DNA from: Buttiauxella agrestis
Lineage (GTDB): Bacteria; Pseudomonadota; Gammaproteobacteria; Enterobacterales; Enterobacteriaceae
Length of the DNA stretch: 64,000 nucleotides
NCBI RefSeq assembly: GCF_900446255.1
Contig: NZ_UIGI01000001.1
Span: forward strand, 3,126,763-3,190,762
Direction: 5' to 3'
Below are positions 1 through 27,310 of this stretch, piece after piece; the stretch's first letter is position 1; the number at the start of each line of letters is the position of its first letter. The notes beneath the pieces were generated by a model. That model was not told the DNA's origin. It saw only the letters and a list, made by a program, of their open reading frames with translations, and made no database searches. A program made the translations under genes and the position numbers.

Positions 1-976
1 CGATAAACGGTTTATCATTACGCTGACTGAGTTTATGAATTGCCCAGGCGACCACCTCTTTACCGGTACCACTTTCACCCGTAATCATCACACTCGACGG
101 ACCCGGTGCAATCCGGCCAATCAAGCGCTTTAACGCCACCATCGGCTGGCATTCACCAATAATATGTTCGATCTGTGGGGCTTCGTTCACGGCATCCGTA
201 TTGATAGCCGTGTGCGATTGATGGAACGCCATTAAAAAAATCTGGTTTTCCTGTACCGTAAGTAACTGACCAATAATTATTTCGCTGCGTTCGTCGAGGG
301 AAATAATATATTGCATATTGCCGCTGGTAAAAGAGTTCTGAAAAGTCAGCGCACGCGCTGAAATCGTTTTCCCCATCAACTGCTCATGGTTGGATTTTAA
401 TATTTTTAATGCGACAGGGTTCGCAAATTTTAACTGATTATTTTTATCCAGGATCAACACGCCCTGATCCATATTATCGATGAGGCTTAACAGTATCCCA
501 CTGGCGTTACTCTCACCGCTTTGGTCTTCGAGGAGTTTGGAAATAAAAATATTGGAAATATGCTGCACATAATCTGAAAATTCGCGCAAATTGTCTCTTA
601 TGCGCTCCTGCTGCTCGCAGTTCAGTGCTACCAGGCTAATCACCCCGACGCAACAGTTCTGAAAAATCACCGGGGTACCGAGGAAAGCTTTTTCCCGGCA
701 ATTTTGCTTATCGGTACACCCTTCACAAATGGGGTCAATACCAGACTGCGTGACGACTTTTTCTTTCTTTGATTCAATAACATGCTTTAACAAGCGTGAA
801 TTGGTATTTAGCTTTCGCCCCAAAGATTTAGCATAAGGGCCAGTGCCTGCTACTCGAACCAGATTGACATCAACAATCTCAATTTCCAGTTGCAACACAC
901 TTGCCAGCATCTTCGCAAAACGGATGATTGTCGGTTGGATCTGCATCAGCGCCGACTGAGTATTTACAGCCATCAT
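1..976 (-). CDS. ygeV: YgeV (UacR-type) sigma54-dependent activator, 5' part only
   Basis: The first 325 codons of a bacterial enhancer-binding protein are present; the rest lies beyond the left edge. My translation closely follows E. coli YgeV. The N-terminal sensor holds a cysteine group of spacing CxxC-x5-C at residues 84, 87 and 93. A PAS-like segment follows at about residues 160-230. The AAA+ domain begins before the edge with a Walker A motif, GESGTGKE, at residue 300. The C-terminal DNA-binding domain is not in view. The start is the ATG at 976, with AAGGA about 11 bases upstream; a second ATG follows directly. It is divergent from ygeW. In E. coli this protein (also called UacR) is reported to act on uric-acid genes. 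The sigma54 promoters at ygeW, ygfK and uacT are its likely targets, by inference. Confidence 0.93.
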   Translation of the reverse strand, partial: MMAVNTQSALMQIQPTIIRFAKMLASVLQLEIEIVDVNLVRVAGTGPYAKSLGRKLNTNSRLLKHVIESKKEKVVTQSGIDPICEGCTDKQNCREKAFLGTPVIFQNCCVGVISLVALNCEQQERIRDNLREFSDYVQHISNIFISKLLEDQSGESNASGILLSLIDNMDQGVLILDKNNQLKFANPVALKILKSNHEQLMGKTISARALTFQNSFTSGNMQYIISLDERSEIIIGQLLTVQENQIFLMAFHQSHTAINTDAVNEAPQIEHIIGECQPMVALKRLIGRIAPGPSSVMITGESGTGKEVVAWAIHKLSQRNDKPFI

Positions 977-1145: not shown

Positions 1146-1160
1146 TTATCAAATTGATAA
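1146..1160. promoter_or_regulatory. TTATCA-N3-TGATAA dyad, candidate activator site
   Basis: The 15 bases TTATCAAATTGATAA form a perfect dyad with a 3-base centre, about 210 bases upstream of the ygeW -24 element. Near copies occur at 10412 and 25745 in the other two sigma54-linked intergenic regions. That arrangement suits an enhancer-binding protein such as YgeV, but binding is inference. Confidence 0.5.
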
Positions 1161-1301
1161 TTGGAATTGTGCCGTTATCAATTTGGAGAACGAACCCGTG
1201 ATAATTCCACCCTATACCGCCAGCCTGCTAAATAGCATTTTTCTTTGATTTATCCTGACTGAAAACAACCCGCACCATTTTCATTAAAATAAGCGTGCTT
1301 T

Positions 1302-1317
1302 ATCGATTGCGTTCACA
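1302..1317 (-). promoter_or_regulatory. CRP-like half site / shared ATCGATTGCGTTCA motif
   Basis: Read on the minus strand it is TGTGA-ACGCAA-TCGAT: one perfect CRP half and one poor half (2 of 5). The plus-strand string ATCGATTGCGTTCAC matches 14 of 15 bases at 10369-10383 upstream of ygfK. It could be a weak CRP site or a different operator common to both operons. Confidence 0.35.
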
Positions 1318-1361: not shown

Positions 1362-1377
1362 TGGCATAGTTATTGTT
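1362..1377 (+). promoter_or_regulatory. sigma54 promoter of ygeW operon
   Basis: TGGCATAGTTATTGTT fits the sigma54 consensus TGGCAC-N5-TTGC, with GG at 1363 and G at 1375, the required 12-base step. The -12 element has GT in place of GC. Transcription should begin near 1387, leaving a leader of about 76 bases. Confidence 0.7.
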
Positions 1378-1463: not shown

Positions 1464-2651
1464 ATGAAAACGATTAATGATTTAATTAAAGATCTCAGCA
1501 AACTTAACTCTCATCTTCATGAAAAGGATTTCCTGTTAACCTGGGAACAGAGTCCGGATGAGCTCAAGCAAGTCCTCGACGTCGCGGCCGTACTGAAATC
1601 CATGCGTGCCGATAACATTGCCACCAACGTCTTTACCAATGGTTTGGGCATCTCCGTTTTCCGTGATAACTCAACCCGTACCCGTTTCTCTTACGCCTCC
1701 GCCCTGAATATGCTGGGCCTGGCGCAGCAAGATCTCGATGAAGGCAAATCGCAAATTGCCCACGGCGAAACGGTCCGTGAAACCGCCAACATGATCTCCT
1801 TCTGTGCGGACGCCATCGGTATTCGCGATGACATGTTCCTTGGTGCAGGCAACGCTTACATGCGTGAAGTGGGTGCCGCACTCGATGAAGGCTACGAAGA
1901 AGGCGTGCTGCCGCAACGCCCTGCCCTGGTCAATCTGCAATGTGATATCGACCATCCCACGCAAGCGATGGCCGATTTGGCCTGGCTGCGCGAGCATTTC
2001 GGCTCGCTGGAAAATCTGAAAGGCAAAAAAATCGCCATGACCTGGGCTTACTCGCCAAGTTACGGCAAGCCGCTGTCGGTGCCACAAGGCATCATCGGCC
2101 TGATGACCCGCTTTGGTATGGACGTCACGCTTGCGCATCCAGACGGCTATGAGCTGATCCCGGATGTGGTGGAAGTAGCCAAAAACAATGCCAAATCATC
2201 CGGTGGCAGCTTCCGCCAGGTCAACTCAATGGAAGAAGCCTTCAAAGATGCCGACATTGTTTATCCAAAATCCTGGGCACCTTACAAAGTCATGGAAGAG
2301 CGCACCACCCTGCTGCGCGCCAACGATCACGACGGCCTTAAAGCGCTGGAAAAACAGTGCCTGGCGCAAAACGCCAACCACAAAAATTGGCACTGCACCG
2401 AAGAGATGATGAAGCTGACCCGTGACGGCGAAGCCCTGTATATGCACTGCCTGCCGGCGGACATTTCCGGCGTGTCGTGTAAAGAAGGCGAAGTCACCGA
2501 AGGCGTATTCGAAAAATACCGTATCGAAACCTACAAAGAAGCCAGCTGGAAGCCTTACATCATCGCCGCAATGATCCTGTCGCGCAAATACGCGAACCCG
2601 GGTCAAATCCTTGAAAAACTGCTTAAAGATGCCGTGAAACGTGTCAAATAA
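1464..2651 (+). CDS. ygeW: YgeW catabolic carbamoyltransferase-like protein
   Basis: A 395-residue member of the aspartate/ornithine carbamoyltransferase superfamily, very close to E. coli YgeW (396 aa). The carbamoyl-phosphate loop NSTRTRFS is near residue 70 and the second-site motif HCLPADISG near residue 330. The family has a knotted trimer fold, and the true amino or ureido substrate is not settled. In this operon it probably runs catabolically, cleaving a carbamoyl compound from purine breakdown into carbamoyl phosphate for the carbamate kinase YqeA. The start is the ATG at 1464; an in-frame TTG just before it is not needed. It is the first gene after the sigma54 promoter and is followed by a stem-loop before ygeX. 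Confidence 0.95.
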   Translation: MKTINDLIKDLSKLNSHLHEKDFLLTWEQSPDELKQVLDVAAVLKSMRADNIATNVFTNGLGISVFRDNSTRTRFSYASALNMLGLAQQDLDEGKSQIAHGETVRETANMISFCADAIGIRDDMFLGAGNAYMREVGAALDEGYEEGVLPQRPALVNLQCDIDHPTQAMADLAWLREHFGSLENLKGKKIAMTWAYSPSYGKPLSVPQGIIGLMTRFGMDVTLAHPDGYELIPDVVEVAKNNAKSSGGSFRQVNSMEEAFKDADIVYPKSWAPYKVMEERTTLLRANDHDGLKALEKQCLAQNANHKNWHCTEEMMKLTRDGEALYMHCLPADISGVSCKEGEVTEGVFEKYRIETYKEASWKPYIIAAMILSRKYANPGQILEKLLKDAVKRVK

Positions 2652-9371: not shown

Positions 9372-10178
9372 CTACAGATTTTTATCCGTCACTACGCCTT
9401 CATCGCGCAGCAACACGTGTGTAATCGGTGGAAACTCTCTGACCGCACCCAGCCAGATGGCATCAAGCCCGCAACGGGCGAGAAGCTCTGGCAGACCGCC
9501 GTTGAAATTCTCAATATGAGAACATCGATTAATCAACCAGATACGTTTGGCTTGCGGTGGAGCCTGTTTAAACATGCCGTGCGGATGGTTAATAAACCGC
9601 CTCAGGGCCGCAATATCCAGGCAGTCATCCTGACGCAGCCCCGTAATAGCGCTAAACAAGGGCCAGCGATGAACATTGTGCGGCCCTTGCGGCTGGTTCA
9701 TTGCCTGCCCGCCCATCACGGCAATAACGAAATCACTGCCCTGAGCTATGCAAGGTTCGTGCAAGGCTGGGGCTTTAAAGGGAAAACCGTGAGCGCCGTC
9801 AGCTTCAACCAACAACACATCGGCAAGATGGCGTTTTGCCAGCGCATCAATTTCTGGTGGCGAAAACCCACGGACTTTTCCGTTTTCTGGATCCCAGCCC
9901 GCAAAGCAGGCAACGGCGGGCGCGGGAAAAGCTGCGGCAGGCAGTTTGTGCGGGGAGCGACACAACAGAACGGGAATATTTTCTTCCGGCAAAAACATCT
10001 GCGTGGTGGTGGTGGCAATTACGCGTTTACCCATGCGAATAAATTCGTGGGCCAGCCAGAATAAGGTGCTGGTTTTTCCCCCGGCGCCCACCAGGCTGAT
10101 CACGGCTGTTTTCTGATTAAATAAATTATTATCTTTGCAAAGTGAATTCAGGGGCGCAGGGATATTGGCATGAGACAT
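9372..10178 (-). CDS. yqeC: YqeC, putative selenium cofactor biosynthesis P-loop protein
   Basis: A 268-residue protein with a nucleotide-binding loop GAGGKTSTLFWLA near residue 33 and a second conserved stretch IATTTTQMF near 57, as in E. coli YqeC. The family is annotated as a putative selenium-dependent hydroxylase accessory factor, with the biochemistry unknown. The ATG at 10178 has GGTGGGA upstream and is preferred to the longer frame from 10229. It is transcribed away from ygfK with yqeB. In E. coli the next gene is mocA, but here the divergent intergenic region follows at once. Confidence 0.9.
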   Translation of the reverse strand: MSHANIPAPLNSLCKDNNLFNQKTAVISLVGAGGKTSTLFWLAHEFIRMGKRVIATTTTQMFLPEENIPVLLCRSPHKLPAAAFPAPAVACFAGWDPENGKVRGFSPPEIDALAKRHLADVLLVEADGAHGFPFKAPALHEPCIAQGSDFVIAVMGGQAMNQPQGPHNVHRWPLFSAITGLRQDDCLDIAALRRFINHPHGMFKQAPPQAKRIWLINRCSHIENFNGGLPELLARCGLDAIWLGAVREFPPITHVLLRDEGVVTDKNL

Positions 10179-10368
10179 GATTTTCCCACCATCAACAAAT
10201 AATGTTATTTCTGACCGTAACGCTCTCACTTTTAATAATTCTGCTGCTTAGTCCGGATTATTTATCTGTTCACATTCTCATGTGGTTTCAGAAAAGCACC
10301 GACACCACAGCATAATCTACACGCCAGCAGTGGCAAAATAACGTCATTTCACAGACTTCTTTTGTTTA

Positions 10369-10383
10369 ATCGATTGCGTTCAA
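10369..10383 (+). promoter_or_regulatory. ATCGATTGCGTTCA motif, second copy
   Basis: ATCGATTGCGTTCAA differs by one base from 1302-1316 upstream of ygeW. The core ATCGATTG recurs inverted at 25851-25858 upstream of uacT. The function is unknown; recurrence in the three coregulated regions is the only evidence. Confidence 0.35.
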
Positions 10384-10411
10384 GAAACCCTGTCGAATAT
10401 CGGTAACTTAT

Positions 10412-10424
10412 TATCAAAATGATA
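10412..10424. promoter_or_regulatory. TATCA-N3-TGATA dyad, candidate activator site
   Basis: TATCAAAATGATA is a perfect 13-base dyad, about 178 bases upstream of the ygfK -24 element. It is the second copy of the element found at 1146 and 25745. Confidence 0.5.
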
Positions 10425-10515
10425 TTTCCTCTCTATTTATGAGAATTCAGAATGTTGAGATAAATTCCATTTGAAACAGTTATTTATTAACAATAAGCAT
10501 TCTCAACAAGGCAAG

Positions 10516-10531
10516 TGTGAAGTGTTTCACA
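10516..10531. promoter_or_regulatory. CRP site upstream of ygfK
   Basis: TGTGAAGTGTTTCACA matches the core CRP palindrome TGTGA-N6-TCACA at all ten positions. Its centre is about 97 bases upstream of the predicted sigma54 start. CRP could act positively on yqeC or modulate the sigma54 promoter. Confidence 0.65.
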
Positions 10532-10594: not shown

Positions 10595-10610
10595 TGGCTC
10601 GATATTTGCA
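10595..10610 (+). promoter_or_regulatory. sigma54 promoter of ygfK operon
   Basis: TGGCTCGATATTTGCA has GG at 10596 and GC at 10608, 12 bases apart, and a consensus TTGCA at -12. This is the best sigma54 match in the window. The predicted start near 10620 leaves a leader of about 61 bases. Confidence 0.8.
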
Positions 10611-10681: not shown

Positions 10682-13600
10682 ATGGGAGATATTATGCGTC
10701 CGGTTCCGTTTGAAGAACTTTTGACGCGGATTTTCGATGAGTATCAACAGAGCAATTCTATTTTTGGAATTCCGGCTCAACAGTTTTATCGGGCTAACAC
10801 CTCTGCCACATTTAATGTTTTTGGTGAAACCTGTGAAACGCCGATTGGCCCTGCTGCTGGCCCTCATACCCAATTAGCCCAGAATATTGTCGTATCCTGG
10901 TTAACGGGTGGTCGTTTTATCGAACTGAAAACCGTGCAGATCCTTGACCGTCTGGAACTTGAAAAACCGTGTATTGATGCGCAAGACGAAGCCTTTAATA
11001 CCGAGTGGTCCACCGAATTTACGCTACCGAAAGCCTACGACGAATATCTCAAAGCCTGGTTTATTCTCCATTTGCTGGAAAAGGTTTTTACCCCGCAATC
11101 TGGCCTGGCGCAAAAGTCATTTATCTTCAATATGAGTGTCGGATACAACCTCGACGGTATTCGCCAGCCGCCGATGCAGCAATTTATCCATTCCATGATG
11201 GACTCTTCGGCGCATCCAGATTTCGCCCGCTACCGCAAAACGTTGCAACAATGGCTGCAAAACGATGCCTTTATTAACCGCTTTGCCTTGCTGGCAGAAC
11301 GCAAATCCGAGCTGGCGCGACTGGCTGAATCCATCCCCGCCACGCTGGTAACTGGCGTGACGTTATCAACCATGCACGGCTGCCCACCGGATGAAATCGA
11401 AGCCATTTGCCGTTACATGCTTGAAGAAAAGCATCTGAATACCTTCGTCAAACTCAACCCGACACTGCTTGGTTATCCGCGCGTCAGAGAAATTCTGGAT
11501 ACCTGCGGCTTCGACTACATTGGCCTCAAAGAAGAGTCGTTCGGCCATGACCTGAAACTCCAGCAAGCCCTGGAAATGTTGCAGCGGTTAATGGCGCTGG
11601 CGAAAGAAAAACAGCTCGGATTTGGCGTTAAGTTAACCAACACCCTCGGCACCATCAATAACAAGGGCGCGTTGCCAGGCGAAGAGATGTATATGTCGGG
11701 GCGCGCGCTGTTCCCACTGTCGATCAACGTTGCGGCGGTACTGTCCCGCGCCTTTGATGGCCTGCTGCCTATCTCCTACTCCGGTGGTGCCAGCAAATTC
11801 ACGATTCGCGATATTTTTGAAACCGGGATTCGCCCCATCACCATGGCCACGGATTTGCTCAAACCTGGCGGCTATCTGCGTATGCTCGACTGCATGCGCG
11901 AGCTGGAAAAATCCAGTGCCGCCGCGCTGGATCGTGTTGACGTTGACCGCCTGGAAGCGCTGGCAAAACGCGCCATCAGCATGGAATACACCCAGAAACA
12001 CTGGAAGTCGGAAGATCAAATTGATGCTGGCGGCCCGCTGCCGCTCACCGATTGCTACGTCGCCCCCTGCGTCACGGCCTGCGCGGTGAAGCAAGATATT
12101 CCTGAGTACATCCGCCTGATGGGCGAAGGGCGTTATACCGATGCGCTCGAGGTGATTTACCAACGCAACGCGCTCCCTGCCATCACCGGTCATATTTGCG
12201 ATCACCAGTGCCAGAGCAACTGTACGCGCCTGGATTACGACAGCGCCCTGAACATTCGCGAACTCAAAAAAGTGGCGCTGGAAAAAGGCTGGGAAGGCTA
12301 TACACAGCGCTGGCATAAGCCCGCGGGGTCGGGCAACCGTCATCCGGTAGCAGTGATTGGTGCAGGCCCTGCCGGGCTTTCCGCCGGTTACTTCCTGGCT
12401 CGTGCCGGACACCAGGTCACTTTGTTTGAACGCGAAGCCAATGCGGGCGGCGTGGTGAAAAACGTCATCCCTCAGTTCCGTATTCCGGCTGAACTTATCC
12501 AGCATGACATCGATTTTATCGCCGCTCATGGCGTGAAGTTTGAATATAACTGCTCGCCGGATCTGACCTTTGAACAGCTGCAAAAGGACGGTTTCCACTA
12601 TGTGCTGGTCGGTATCGGCACGGATAAAAACAGCGGTGTGAAACTGGCGGGTGATAACCGCAACGTCTACAAATCGCTGCCCTTCCTGCGTGACTACAAT
12701 CGCGGCGAGAAGCTGAATCTTGGTAAACACGTTGCCGTTGTGGGCGCGGGCAACACGGCGATGGACTGCGCGCGCGCCGCATTGCGTGTGCCGGGCGTGA
12801 CCGACGTGACCGTGCTGTATCGCCGCACCGCCAGCGAAATGCCTGCCTGGCGCGAGGAGTATGAAGAAGCGCTGGAGGATGGCGTGAAATTTATGTTCCT
12901 GACCAACCCAGAGCACTTTGCCGCAGACGGCACCTTAACGGTACGCAAGATGGAATTAGGTGAGCCGGACAGTTCAGGCCGCCGCCGCCCTGTGGCTTCT
13001 GAGCACACCGAAACGCTGACCTTCACCGCCTTAATTACCGCCATTGGCGAACAGCAAGATTGCGAAGCGTTAGCAGCGATTGGCGTTCCCATGGATGAGC
13101 AAGGCTGGCCTGCGGTCGCCTGCGCCAGCGGCGAAACCACCAAACCAGGCCTGTTCCTGATTGGCGATGTGCAAAGCGGTCCGTCTTCGATTGTGGCGGC
13201 TATCGGCACCGCGCGACGGGCGACAGATGCCATTTTGTGGCGCGAGAACATTCAAACAAGCCACGGTGACAAACACTGGAACAACGTCGACCCGCAGCAT
13301 GTTTATCAACGCAAAGGCAATATTGCCGTCAACCTGGTCAATAAAAACGATCGCAATAACTTTGTGAAACAGGAAGCAGAACGCTGCCTGGAGTGTAATT
13401 ACATCTGTAGCAAATGCGTCGATGTCTGCCCGAACCGCGCCAACGTTTCTATTGCCGTTCCCGGCTTCCAGAACCGCTTCCAGACGCTGCACCTTGATGC
13501 TTTCTGTAATGAATGCGGCAACTGCGCCCAGTTCTGTCCATGGCAGGGCAAACCGTATACCGACAAATTAACGGTCTTCAGCCTGCCAGAAGACTTCGCC

Positions 13601-13792
13601 AACAGCAGCAATCCAGGCTTTTACGCTGACGGCAACGACGTCCGCATCCGTCTGCACCAACAGGTGTGGAATTTAACCCTCAACGATGACAGCCAATTCC
13701 AGCAACCGCCGCACGAGCTTGGTGATATCTGCAAAATCATCAGCCACGTGCATAAACATCATCGTTACCTGTTAGGAAAAGTGGAGGCCTGA
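10682..13792 (+). CDS. ygfK: YgfK, putative selenate reductase / iron-sulfur flavoprotein
   Basis: A 1036-residue multidomain oxidoreductase, highly similar to E. coli YgfK (1032 aa). Residues 1 to about 440 look like a dihydroorotate-dehydrogenase-type barrel. A GltD-like iron-sulfur segment follows (APCVTACAVKQDIPEY near 461; CDHQCQSNC near 506). The FAD loop IGAGPAGLSAGYFLARAGH is near 558 and the NAD(P)H loop VGAGNTAMDCARAA near 689. Two C-terminal [4Fe-4S] motifs lie near 903 (CLECNYICSKCVDVC) and 942 (CNECGNCAQFC). It is probably a soluble electron-transfer reductase for the purine pathway; the selenate role is a historical label. The ATG at 10682 follows AAGGAG. It heads the ygfK-ssnA-ygfM-xdhD operon. 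Confidence 0.93.
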   Translation: MGDIMRPVPFEELLTRIFDEYQQSNSIFGIPAQQFYRANTSATFNVFGETCETPIGPAAGPHTQLAQNIVVSWLTGGRFIELKTVQILDRLELEKPCIDAQDEAFNTEWSTEFTLPKAYDEYLKAWFILHLLEKVFTPQSGLAQKSFIFNMSVGYNLDGIRQPPMQQFIHSMMDSSAHPDFARYRKTLQQWLQNDAFINRFALLAERKSELARLAESIPATLVTGVTLSTMHGCPPDEIEAICRYMLEEKHLNTFVKLNPTLLGYPRVREILDTCGFDYIGLKEESFGHDLKLQQALEMLQRLMALAKEKQLGFGVKLTNTLGTINNKGALPGEEMYMSGRALFPLSINVAAVLSRAFDGLLPISYSGGASKFTIRDIFETGIRPITMATDLLKPGGYLRMLDCMRELEKSSAAALDRVDVDRLEALAKRAISMEYTQKHWKSEDQIDAGGPLPLTDCYVAPCVTACAVKQDIPEYIRLMGEGRYTDALEVIYQRNALPAITGHICDHQCQSNCTRLDYDSALNIRELKKVALEKGWEGYTQRWHKPAGSGNRHPVAVIGAGPAGLSAGYFLARAGHQVTLFEREANAGGVVKNVIPQFRIPAELIQHDIDFIAAHGVKFEYNCSPDLTFEQLQKDGFHYVLVGIGTDKNSGVKLAGDNRNVYKSLPFLRDYNRGEKLNLGKHVAVVGAGNTAMDCARAALRVPGVTDVTVLYRRTASEMPAWREEYEEALEDGVKFMFLTNPEHFAADGTLTVRKMELGEPDSSGRRRPVASEHTETLTFTALITAIGEQQDCEALAAIGVPMDEQGWPAVACASGETTKPGLFLIGDVQSGPSSIVAAIGTARRATDAILWRENIQTSHGDKHWNNVDPQHVYQRKGNIAVNLVNKNDRNNFVKQEAERCLECNYICSKCVDVCPNRANVSIAVPGFQNRFQTLHLDAFCNECGNCAQFCPWQGKPYTDKLTVFSLPEDFANSSNPGFYADGNDVRIRLHQQVWNLTLNDDSQFQQPPHELGDICKIISHVHKHHRYLLGKVEA

Positions 13793-25659: not shown

Positions 25660-25675
25660 TGTGAACGACTGCACA
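25660..25675. promoter_or_regulatory. CRP-like site, ygfT side
   Basis: TGTGA-ACGACT-GCACA matches nine of the ten core CRP positions. Its centre is about 97 bases upstream of the ygfT start codon on the minus strand, so it may serve ygfT-ygfS. Confidence 0.5.
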
Positions 25676-25744: not shown

Positions 25745-25759
25745 TTATCAAACTGAGAA
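25745..25759. promoter_or_regulatory. TTATCA-N3-TGAGAA dyad, candidate activator site
   Basis: TTATCAAACTGAGAA differs from a perfect dyad by one base and lies about 127 bases upstream of the uacT -24 element. A looser inverted copy, CCTCATACTGATA, is at 25766-25778. It is the third member of the set at 1146 and 10412. Confidence 0.45.
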
Positions 25760-25828
25760 GATAAACCTCATACTGATAAAACTCGTCAGGAGAAAAATTT
25801 CGCACTTCACCTTCAATACAATCCATTA

Positions 25829-25844
25829 CGTGATGTTTTTCACA
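25829..25844. promoter_or_regulatory. CRP-like site, uacT side
   Basis: CGTGA-TGTTTT-TCACA matches nine of ten core CRP positions. It is centred about 66 bases upstream of the predicted sigma54 start of uacT. Confidence 0.5.
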
Positions 25845-25877: not shown

Positions 25878-25893
25878 TGGCATCAGTTACGCA
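25878..25893 (+). promoter_or_regulatory. sigma54 promoter of uacT
   Basis: TGGCATCAGTTACGCA has GG at 25879 and GC at 25891, 12 bases apart. The predicted start near 25903 gives a leader of about 58 bases before the ATG at 25961. Confidence 0.7.
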
Positions 25894-25960: not shown

Positions 25961-27310
25961 ATGGAAAACAGTGCTACTGGAATATCAGCCACTCAGACAC
26001 CAAATGAAGTCGACCGAATACTGCCGCCCGGGCAATTACTGATCCTTGGCCTTCAGCATGTTCTGGTGATGTATGCCGGGGCTGTAGCCGTCCCTCTGAT
26101 GATTGGCGACCGTTTAGGGTTAAGCAAAGAAGTTATCTCTCTATTGATTAGCTCGGATCTGTTTTGTTGCGGCATCGTCACGCTGATTCAGTGTCTGGGA
26201 GTCGGTAAATTTATGGGGATCCGCTTGCCTGTGATTATGTCGGTGACATTTGCCGCAGTAACACCCATGGTGGCCATTGGTATTAATCCGGGTGTCGGCC
26301 TGACTGGGATTTTTGGCGCGACTATCGCCGCCGGGTTGATCACGACTCTGCTGGCACCTGTTGTTGGCCGGTTAATGCCCTTGTTCCCTCCGCTGGTCAC
26401 CGGAATTGTTATTACCTCAATTGGGCTGAGTATCATCCAGGTCGGTATCGACTGGGCGGCAGGCGGAGCAGGCAACCCGAATTACGGCGACCCGGTTTAT
26501 ATTTGCGTCGCCTCAGCCGTATTGTTGTTTATCTTGCTGATTACCCGTTATGCCAAAGGCTTTTTATCCAATGTGGCGGTGCTTCTGGGGATTGCGTTTG
26601 GTTTTGCGTTGGCTTACATGATGGGCGAAGTTAATTTGTCCGGGCTGGCTGATGCAAAGTGGTTCGCGATTGTGACGCCAATGGCGCTGGGCGTCCCAAC
26701 GTTTGATCCTATTGCCATCCTGACCCTGACCGCGGTACTGATTATTGTCTTTATTGAGTCGATGGGGATGTTTCTGGCGCTTGGTGATATCGTCGGCCAG
26801 AAGTTAACCGAAAAAGATATTATCCGTGGTTTACGTGTTGATGGTGTCGGGACGGTAATTGGCGGCCTGTTTAACAGCTTTCCGCATACTTCGTTTTCCC
26901 AAAACGTCGGACTGGTGAGCGTCACGCGAATTCATAGCCGTTGGGTGTGCGTGGCAGCGGGCGGTATTTTGATCCTGTTTGGCATGGTGCCGAAAATGGC
27001 GGTGTTTGTGGCGTCAATTCCGCAATTTGTCTTAGGAGGTGCGGGGCTGGTGATGTTTGGGATGGTGCTCGCAACCGGTATTCGTATTCTGGCTCGCGCC
27101 AACTACTCAACGAATCGTTATAACCTGTATATCGTCGCCATCAGCTTAGGGATGGGTATGACTCCGACACTTTCTCACGACTTTTTCTCACAATTCCCGG
27201 CAGCGTTACAACCGTTGCTGCACAGCGGGATCATGCTGGCAACTACCTGTGCTGTGATTCTGAATCTGTTTTTTAATGGCTATCCAAAAGCTGAAAAATC
27301 ACAGAGTTAG
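25961..27310 (+). CDS. uacT: uric acid transporter UacT
   Basis: A 449-residue NCS2-family proton symporter, very close to E. coli UacT (482 aa). Characteristic stretches include PGQLLILGLQHVLVMYAGAVA near residue 22 (the family histidine), LPVIMSVTFAAVTPM near 90, FIESMGMFLALGDIVG near 265, and FPHTSFSQNVGLVSVTR near 306. The C-terminal tail ends soon after the last helix and lacks about 30 charged residues present in E. coli. It imports urate for the pathway encoded upstream. The ATG at 25961 follows AAGGAGATAG. A stem-loop follows the stop. Confidence 0.94.
   Translation: MENSATGISATQTPNEVDRILPPGQLLILGLQHVLVMYAGAVAVPLMIGDRLGLSKEVISLLISSDLFCCGIVTLIQCLGVGKFMGIRLPVIMSVTFAAVTPMVAIGINPGVGLTGIFGATIAAGLITTLLAPVVGRLMPLFPPLVTGIVITSIGLSIIQVGIDWAAGGAGNPNYGDPVYICVASAVLLFILLITRYAKGFLSNVAVLLGIAFGFALAYMMGEVNLSGLADAKWFAIVTPMALGVPTFDPIAILTLTAVLIIVFIESMGMFLALGDIVGQKLTEKDIIRGLRVDGVGTVIGGLFNSFPHTSFSQNVGLVSVTRIHSRWVCVAAGGILILFGMVPKMAVFVASIPQFVLGGAGLVMFGMVLATGIRILARANYSTNRYNLYIVAISLGMGMTPTLSHDFFSQFPAALQPLLHSGIMLATTCAVILNLFFNGYPKAEKSQS

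Follow-up and report, generated by a model that had tools for sequence, protein, structure and literature searches.

Introduction

YgeV is an orphan regulator of Escherichia coli that has been proposed for the anaerobic purine/uric-acid pathway and has separately been reported to respond to indole. In E. coli, a YgeV iModulon (PRECISE 2.0, cited in the accessible part of PMC12132413) includes xdhABC, ygeWXY, hyuA, ygfK, ssnA, ygfM, xdhD, ygfT and uacT, with YgeV named there as its putative regulator. In enterohaemorrhagic E. coli the same protein is called IsrR and is described as an indole-responsive σ54 regulator, direct regulation being left open in the portion of the report available (PMC9426417), whose text contains none of the terms 'binding site', 'uric' or 'ygeW'. 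According to the available part of PMC4591121, σ54 ChIP-seq sites in E. coli lie at xdhA, ygeW, ygfK and ygfT. The ygeV-ygeW gap is also among the listed targets of RpoN holoenzyme in genomic SELEX (PMC8743547, in part). In Clostridiales, the predicted σ54 regulon of DioR is given as ygeW-ygfK-ssnA-ygeY, yqeB, dpaL-pyrC-argE and pbuX in the accessible portions of PMC6615313 and PMC11448449. The literature searched, with most subscription papers outside its reach, yielded no published recognition sequence for YgeV.

The DNA analysed here (the window, a stretch of 64 kb) is occupied by a purine/urate cluster of the Buttiauxella type that runs from ygeV to uacT. Its gene order is ygeV (partial, at the window edge), ygeW, ygeX, ygeY, hyuA, yqeA, yqeB, yqeC and then ygfK, with ssnA, ygfM, xdhD, transport genes, ygfT and uacT rightward of ygfK; some genes were named by profile match and the remainder by gene order relative to E. 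coli K-12. The N-terminal 325 residues of YgeV are encoded on the minus strand (2..976), where the gene leaves the window, and match at 92% identity over the query in genome G251. On the plus strand, ygeW (1464..2651; NCBIfam TIGR03316, 666.8 bits) heads the run ygeW-ygeX-ygeY-hyuA-yqeA, ygfK (10682..13792; TIGR03315, 1636.7 bits) heads the run ygfK-ssnA-ygfM-xdhD, and a gene for an NCS2-type permease (25961..27310; TIGR03173, 508.4 bits) matches E. coli uacT in position. The region has diverged: a megablast search with positions 1-1500 gave no match, and distant blastn with ygeV, the gap and ygeW as query reached at most 76% coverage among the matches listed.

Results

Dyads and promoters in the window

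An earlier note on this DNA had drawn attention to a TTATCA-N3-TGATAA dyad upstream of each of three σ54 promoters and had suggested it as a site for YgeV. The three σ54 gaps of the window indeed hold one dyad of this type each, starting at 1146, 10411 and 25745, the third being one mismatch off (TGAGAA). We scored them with a matrix built from 52 training sites under 28 other genus labels, the window being excluded, and located promoters by a scan with a σ54 promoter matrix. In the ygeV-ygeW gap, the main dyad TTATCAAATTGATAA (1146..1160; 20.7 bits) is a candidate YgeV site for ygeW and possibly also for ygeV, and the ygeW σ54 promoter TGGCATAGTTATTGTT lies at 1362..1377 (plus strand). Upstream of ygfK, the main dyad TTATCAAAATGATAT (10411..10425; 19.6 bits) is the candidate YgeV site for that gene and precedes the σ54 promoter TGGCTCGATATTTGCA (10595..10610, plus strand). 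The dyad of the ygfT-uacT gap, TTATCAAACTGAGAA (25745..25759; 17.5 bits), is followed by a σ54-like uacT promoter, TGGCATCAGTTACGCA (25878..25893, plus strand), which is the weakest of the three.

The E. coli counterparts of the ygeW and ygfK promoters, TGGCACACTTATTGTT and TGGTGCGATTGTTGCT, are σ54 ChIP-seq sites in the available part of PMC4591121, where the sites at xdhA, ygeW and ygfK coincide with the -24/-12 elements picked by our scan; for uacT, none was seen among the σ54 ChIP-seq sites in that part of the source.

Beyond what the earlier note had listed, each main dyad is accompanied downstream by a degenerate second site or half-site. A second dyad, TTATCAATTTGGAGA (1175..1189), with its left half intact, lies 29 bp downstream of the dyad at 1146; a half-site TGAGAA (10440..10445) begins 29 bp after the first base of the dyad at 10411; and a dyad of 9.0 bits, ACCTCATACTGATAA (25765..25779), lies 20 bp from the one at 25745. 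A fourth strong site, also absent from that note, is intragenic: TTCTCAATATGAGAA (9508..9522; 19.2 bits, again with the matrix made without the window) is a perfect dyad within the 3'-terminal part of yqeC, with yqeB following 159 bp further on.

Frequency of the dyad relative to chance

With up to two mismatches, the pattern TTATCAAANTGATAA matches the window six times, where 0.43 matches would be expected and where 100 shuffles always gave fewer than six; the site at 1146 accounts for two of these matches, one per strand, and two others (10917, 25335) are in coding sequence. Scored with the matrix, the sites of at least 15 bits in the 64 kb are exactly those at 1146, 9508, 10411 and 25745, against a mean of 0.05 and a maximum of one in 40 shuffles. 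A 34-kb region of E. coli, scored with E. coli left out of the training, also holds four sites of at least 15 bits.

We also counted de novo every perfect dyad with 5-base arms and spacers of 0 to 14, with a single representative for each genus label; of the 31 labels with YgeV, 29 were covered, two of them by the window and by E. coli K-12. In 25 of these 29 genera the ygfK gap could be read as well, the exceptions being L051, L058, L064 and L066. TATCA-N3-TGATA is the top dyad in both gaps, exact in 15/29 ygeV-ygeW gaps and 18/25 ygfK gaps, and no dyad whatever occurred more than three times in any of 100 shuffled sets. When up to two mismatches are admitted, the N3 dyad is found in 28/29 and 25/25 gaps, with 1.9 and 0.9 expected from dinucleotide shuffles; other spacers give at most 11/29 and 7/25, so that only a spacer of 3 is strongly enriched.

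Promoter architecture

In the window the dyad centres lie 211 bp (ygeW), 179 bp (ygfK) and 128 bp (uacT) before the GG of the -24 element, which bears out the 127 to 210 bases first estimated. Among relatives, the distances from dyad centre to -24 in the ygeW gap are mostly 200, 210-214, 221-224 and 233 bp, with others at 145, 180-181, 198, 251 and 272; in the ygfK gap they are mostly 157-159 and 178-179, with others at 107, 136, 138 and 149. Over the ygeW, ygfK, xdhA and uacT gaps together the range is 107-272 bp, which fits the approximately 80-300 bp expected of an enhancer.

The distances are also in helical phase. For 18 distance classes from the four gaps, R = 0.69 at 10.5 bp, rising to 0.74 when the period may vary between 10.2 and 10.8 bp, a maximum that 20000 random sets never attained; when just the ygeW and ygfK gaps are taken, 0.25% of random sets phase equally well. 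This set omits L068 (which has the genus label of L066), the uacT gap of L057, and the xdhA rows that lack a credible dyad or have their best promoter match upstream of the dyad.

The second sites recur at fixed positions as well. TTATCA is found exactly at +29 bp in the ygeW gap of 19/29 genera, and TGAGAA or TGATAA at +29 or +30 in the ygfK gap of 20/25, while in the xdhA and uacT gaps the main dyad often has a second one 19-22 bp away. Together with the σ54 promoter, this arrangement would fit the cooperative loading of an enhancer-binding protein.

Conservation of the dyad and its association with ygeV

The earlier note had singled out the corresponding gaps of E. coli as the place to look, and all three hold the site: K-12 has ATATCAATATGAGAA and TTATCAAACTGAAGA in the ygeV-ygeW gap, TTATCATAATGATAA in the mocA-ygfK gap and ATATCAATATGAGAA in the ygfT-uacT gap, plus a weak TTATCACATTGATTT before xdhA. 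The absence from related genomes that would have spoken against a functional site was not observed, the site being kept in the relatives examined. In the ygfT-uacT gap, the dyad scores 13.2-20.2 bits in 16/16 relatives showing that gap, the stretches of four further relatives being without it. L069 has in its ygeV-ygeW gap a site with three mismatches only, and L065 to L068 gave no convincing site before xdhA.

In a family sample of 295 genomes, ygfK is present in 46 and a YgeV match in 46, and the two lists differ by G012 (a YgeV match of 49%) and G168 (ygfK fragmentary in the stretch read). DNA was read for 42 of the 46 genomes with a YgeV match, plus G012, leaving out G002, G094, G229 and G281. 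We then collected 80 named ygeW loci, none of them clostridial. In all 58 that have ygeV in the stretch, a dyad scoring 14.8 bits or more lies no further than 500 bp from ygeW; many Enterobacteriaceae among the 80 are the same assemblies as in the matrix training, and 18 of the 58 come from orders absent from that training. The dyad accompanies ygeV from Enterobacterales to Vibrio, Photobacterium, Aeromonas, Shewanella and Endozoicomonas, and occurs also in a betaproteobacterial MAG.

The remaining 22 loci, with no ygeV in the stretch, are four from Aeromonas, L140 and 17 from other phyla. The four Aeromonas loci have the dyad, and all four genomes encode a full-length YgeV elsewhere (63-65% identity). 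The 17 loci titled as other phyla (one of them only as 'bacterium') have no dyad at ygeW (0/17), the upstream stretch of L159 measuring merely 154 bp; in L163, which is among them and has no YgeV, a match of 14.3 bits precedes ygeY, the gene upstream of ygeW, and none is found at ygeW. A search for YgeV in 12 of these 17 genomes returned central or C-terminal matches alone, or none. Across the loci tested, the site is thus present with ygeV and absent without it, and the sole exception is the Rhodoferax MAG L140, which has a dyad of 16.2 bits and in which no full-length YgeV was found.

Since the dyad is conserved across so many YgeV-bearing bacteria, a sequence of the form ~TTMTCA-N3-TGAKAA is very probably the YgeV operator, that is, the upstream activating sequence to which YgeV would bind; the proposal of the earlier note that YgeV is the enhancer-binding protein concerned thus gains strong computational support, and contact by YgeV is what we infer from it. 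That the dyad is functionless, a product of AT-rich chance or of unselected intergenic DNA passed on by ancestry, might be argued from the AT-richness of the gaps and from the sequence that neighbouring genomes share by descent, but the counts in shuffled gaps, the strong enrichment at spacer 3 only and the retention of the dyad by every one of the ygeV-bearing loci, in several orders, leave this reading almost no probability.

The dyad could instead be the operator of another regulator of purine catabolism, such as Fur, IHF or some unlinked factor, with YgeV binding elsewhere. The AT-rich half-sites do resemble parts of Fur and IHF sites, and one extra match in the close E. coli relative G235 falls around the haem-uptake gene chuT. 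Judged by what we take to be their consensuses, however, IHF is matched by 0/54 sites, and for Fur the sites agree at best at 8 to 13 positions of the 19-mer, on which grounds both identities were rejected. The dyad's tracking of ygeV across genera and phyla, with one exception, and its phasing with σ54 promoters, which fits an enhancer-binding protein, make another regulator improbable, and YgeV remains the preferred binding protein.

The helix-turn-helix of YgeV contains TLYRKIKK in 41/41 proteins compared, and the next most similar helix-turn-helix in G235 and G251 has an E value of 0.4-0.5. The residues before TLYRKIKK vary. The four proteins with ISVA go with TTCTCA-N3-TGAGAA sites, having C/G at positions 3 and 13 in 7/7 ygeW and ygfK sites, against 0/62 for IGIA proteins and 2/9 for IGVA proteins. 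Contrary to such a covariation, IGIA genomes carry C/G sites in yqeC and before uacT, and because of these sites the covariation of helix and site is equivocal.

Cluster position and genome-wide background

In 1.26 Mb around the cluster, there are 138 matches of at least 15 bits, 129 of them within the at most 6.3% of sequence upstream of cluster genes (up to 450 bp before ygeW or ygeX, ygfK, uacT, xdhA and yqeB). The ygeW and ygfK sites of many of these loci had served to train the matrix, the xdhA and yqeB zones were added once sites were known there, and overlapping zones were counted twice; 51 of the 129 lie at uacT, xdhA or yqeB, genes whose sites did not train the matrix.

Many random matches elsewhere had been named in the earlier note as evidence against the motif. 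Such matches do exist in G235, in small number, and genome-wide counts by themselves do not discriminate. G235 has 13 matches to WTMTCANNNTGAKAW, five of them inside the cluster of ~29 kb (three in promoter gaps, one in yqeC and one in ygeX), and a reversed control pattern has one. Two genomes with the genus label of the window that have neither ygeV nor ygfK show 5 and 12 matches, and the strict pattern WTMTCAWWWTGAKAW occurs in 231/295 family genomes, most of them without ygeV; 4 of the 46 genomes with a YgeV match lack it altogether. The background of the motif is not negligible; a genome-wide count is not decisive by itself and was rejected as sole proof, and with the strict pattern so widespread it is the position in the cluster that carries the argument.

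Of the eight G235 matches that lie beyond the cluster, four were placed, in the areas of chuT, yheS-kefG, ppnP-rdgC-ykiD and a phage tail gene, and were treated as background. The one near ppnP, a gene for a purine/pyrimidine nucleoside phosphorylase, is the dyad ATATCAAATTGATAT at L194 (G235:C1:3764599) and may be due to chance. Separately, TTATCGATTTGATAA or its mirror image sits at the end of an xdhC-like gene beside mocA in several genera (L063:15424, L071:15334, L218:15291, L219:243).

The intragenic site in yqeC

The dyad at the 3' end of yqeC is present in 25/25 sequences with this gene (23 loci, the window and E. coli), at 16.0-21.1 bits and -159 to -203 from yqeB. Swaps within it between TTCTCA..TGAGAA and TTATCA..TGATAA alter amino acids (codons read by hand), which suggests selection on the DNA, a protein motif being the alternative. 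At 15 loci we found yqeB facing ygfK without yqeC. Eight of them (L063, L065-L071) have a clear yqeB σ54 promoter at -54 to -59, which the dyad in between may serve; in the other seven (L055, L056, L057, L059-L062) a clear promoter is absent. In the window and in E. coli, the promoter scan gave no convincing yqeB σ54 promoter. The accessible part of PMC11448449 reports for C. difficile a SigL promoter that precedes yqeB, not yqeC, and assigns it to DioR.

It is conceivable, and we advance it tentatively, that the yqeC dyad is a working YgeV site which persists in Escherichia and Buttiauxella either to enhance ygfK from a distance of more than 1 kb or to act inside the gene as a brake on yqeCB. 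The site also bears on another reading, namely that YgeV on the dyad represses or autoregulates at some places, which would be compatible with activation elsewhere and overlaps with it. A yqeC dyad with no clear σ54 promoter downstream in the window or in E. coli would suit a repressor, and the dyad of the ygeV-ygeW gap lies upstream of ygeV as well, as expected of autoregulation. The ygeW and ygfK dyads, in contrast, stand at enhancer distance and in helical phase with conserved σ54 promoters, and σ54 promoters need an activator, so that repression or autoregulation appears unlikely; activation by YgeV is the reading that we follow below.

Other sites in the gaps

Two PurR-like boxes, called with what we take to be the PurR consensus, lie at 10364-10379 and 1297-1312 (minus strand), with two and three mismatches respectively, and have ACGCAATCGAT in common. 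Boxes with up to two mismatches occur in 7/29 ygeW and 7/25 ygfK gaps (1.0 and 0.6 expected), and at three mismatches they are hardly enriched (13 vs 7.5 and 8 vs 6.1 expected). For CRP, whose consensus is TGTGA-N6-TCACA, sites with at most one mismatch are found in 13/29 ygeW gaps and 17/25 ygfK gaps, where 0.5 and 0.3 are expected. In the window, a perfect CRP-type site, TGTGAAGTGTTTCACA (10516..10531), lies between the putative activating site at 10411 and the ygfK promoter, and further ones with 0 or 1 mismatch lie at 25660-25675 and 25829-25844, in the gap that holds the dyad at 25745. A native CRP site is mentioned for the ygeV-ygeW gap of E. coli in the available portion of PMC12507026.

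Discussion

From the site and its setting we infer the following mechanism. YgeV, a σ54 enhancer-binding protein with a C-terminal helix-turn-helix, would bind the strong dyad as a dimer, its assembly probably aided by the weaker second site, or half-site, located 20 to 30 bp downstream. Looping of the DNA would then carry its AAA+ ATPase to the σ54-RNA polymerase waiting at -24/-12, presumably in response to a purine-related inducing signal, and the promoters of ygeW, ygfK and uacT (with the divergent ygfT) would be opened, as may those of xdhA and yqeB in many relatives. Uric-acid breakdown in bacteria would thereby come under a single switch, and CRP-type sites accompany the dyad in these gaps.

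The regulon predicted from the dyad can be set beside three described systems. The YgeV iModulon is an expression grouping that also has ybiY and rcsB, and in the accessible part of PMC12132413 no recognition sequence was seen. DioR, the predicted enhancer-binding protein of Clostridiales, would act on the same pathway by the same type of control as is proposed for the YgeV cluster (PMC6615313, PMC11448449, each in part). In the available portion of PMC6615313 the DioR motif is called distinct, and the likeness to the YgeV cluster is one of regulon description.

A candidate recognition sequence of 15 bp makes the direct regulon of YgeV predictable and testable. The third system is that of the NorR-type sites of enterobacterial enhancer-binding proteins, GTCA-N3-TGAC. 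As this class is generally understood, the dyad shares with it the TCA-N3-TGA core, the 3-bp spacer and the position upstream of a σ54 promoter, and differs from it in the flanking bases and in the target genes.
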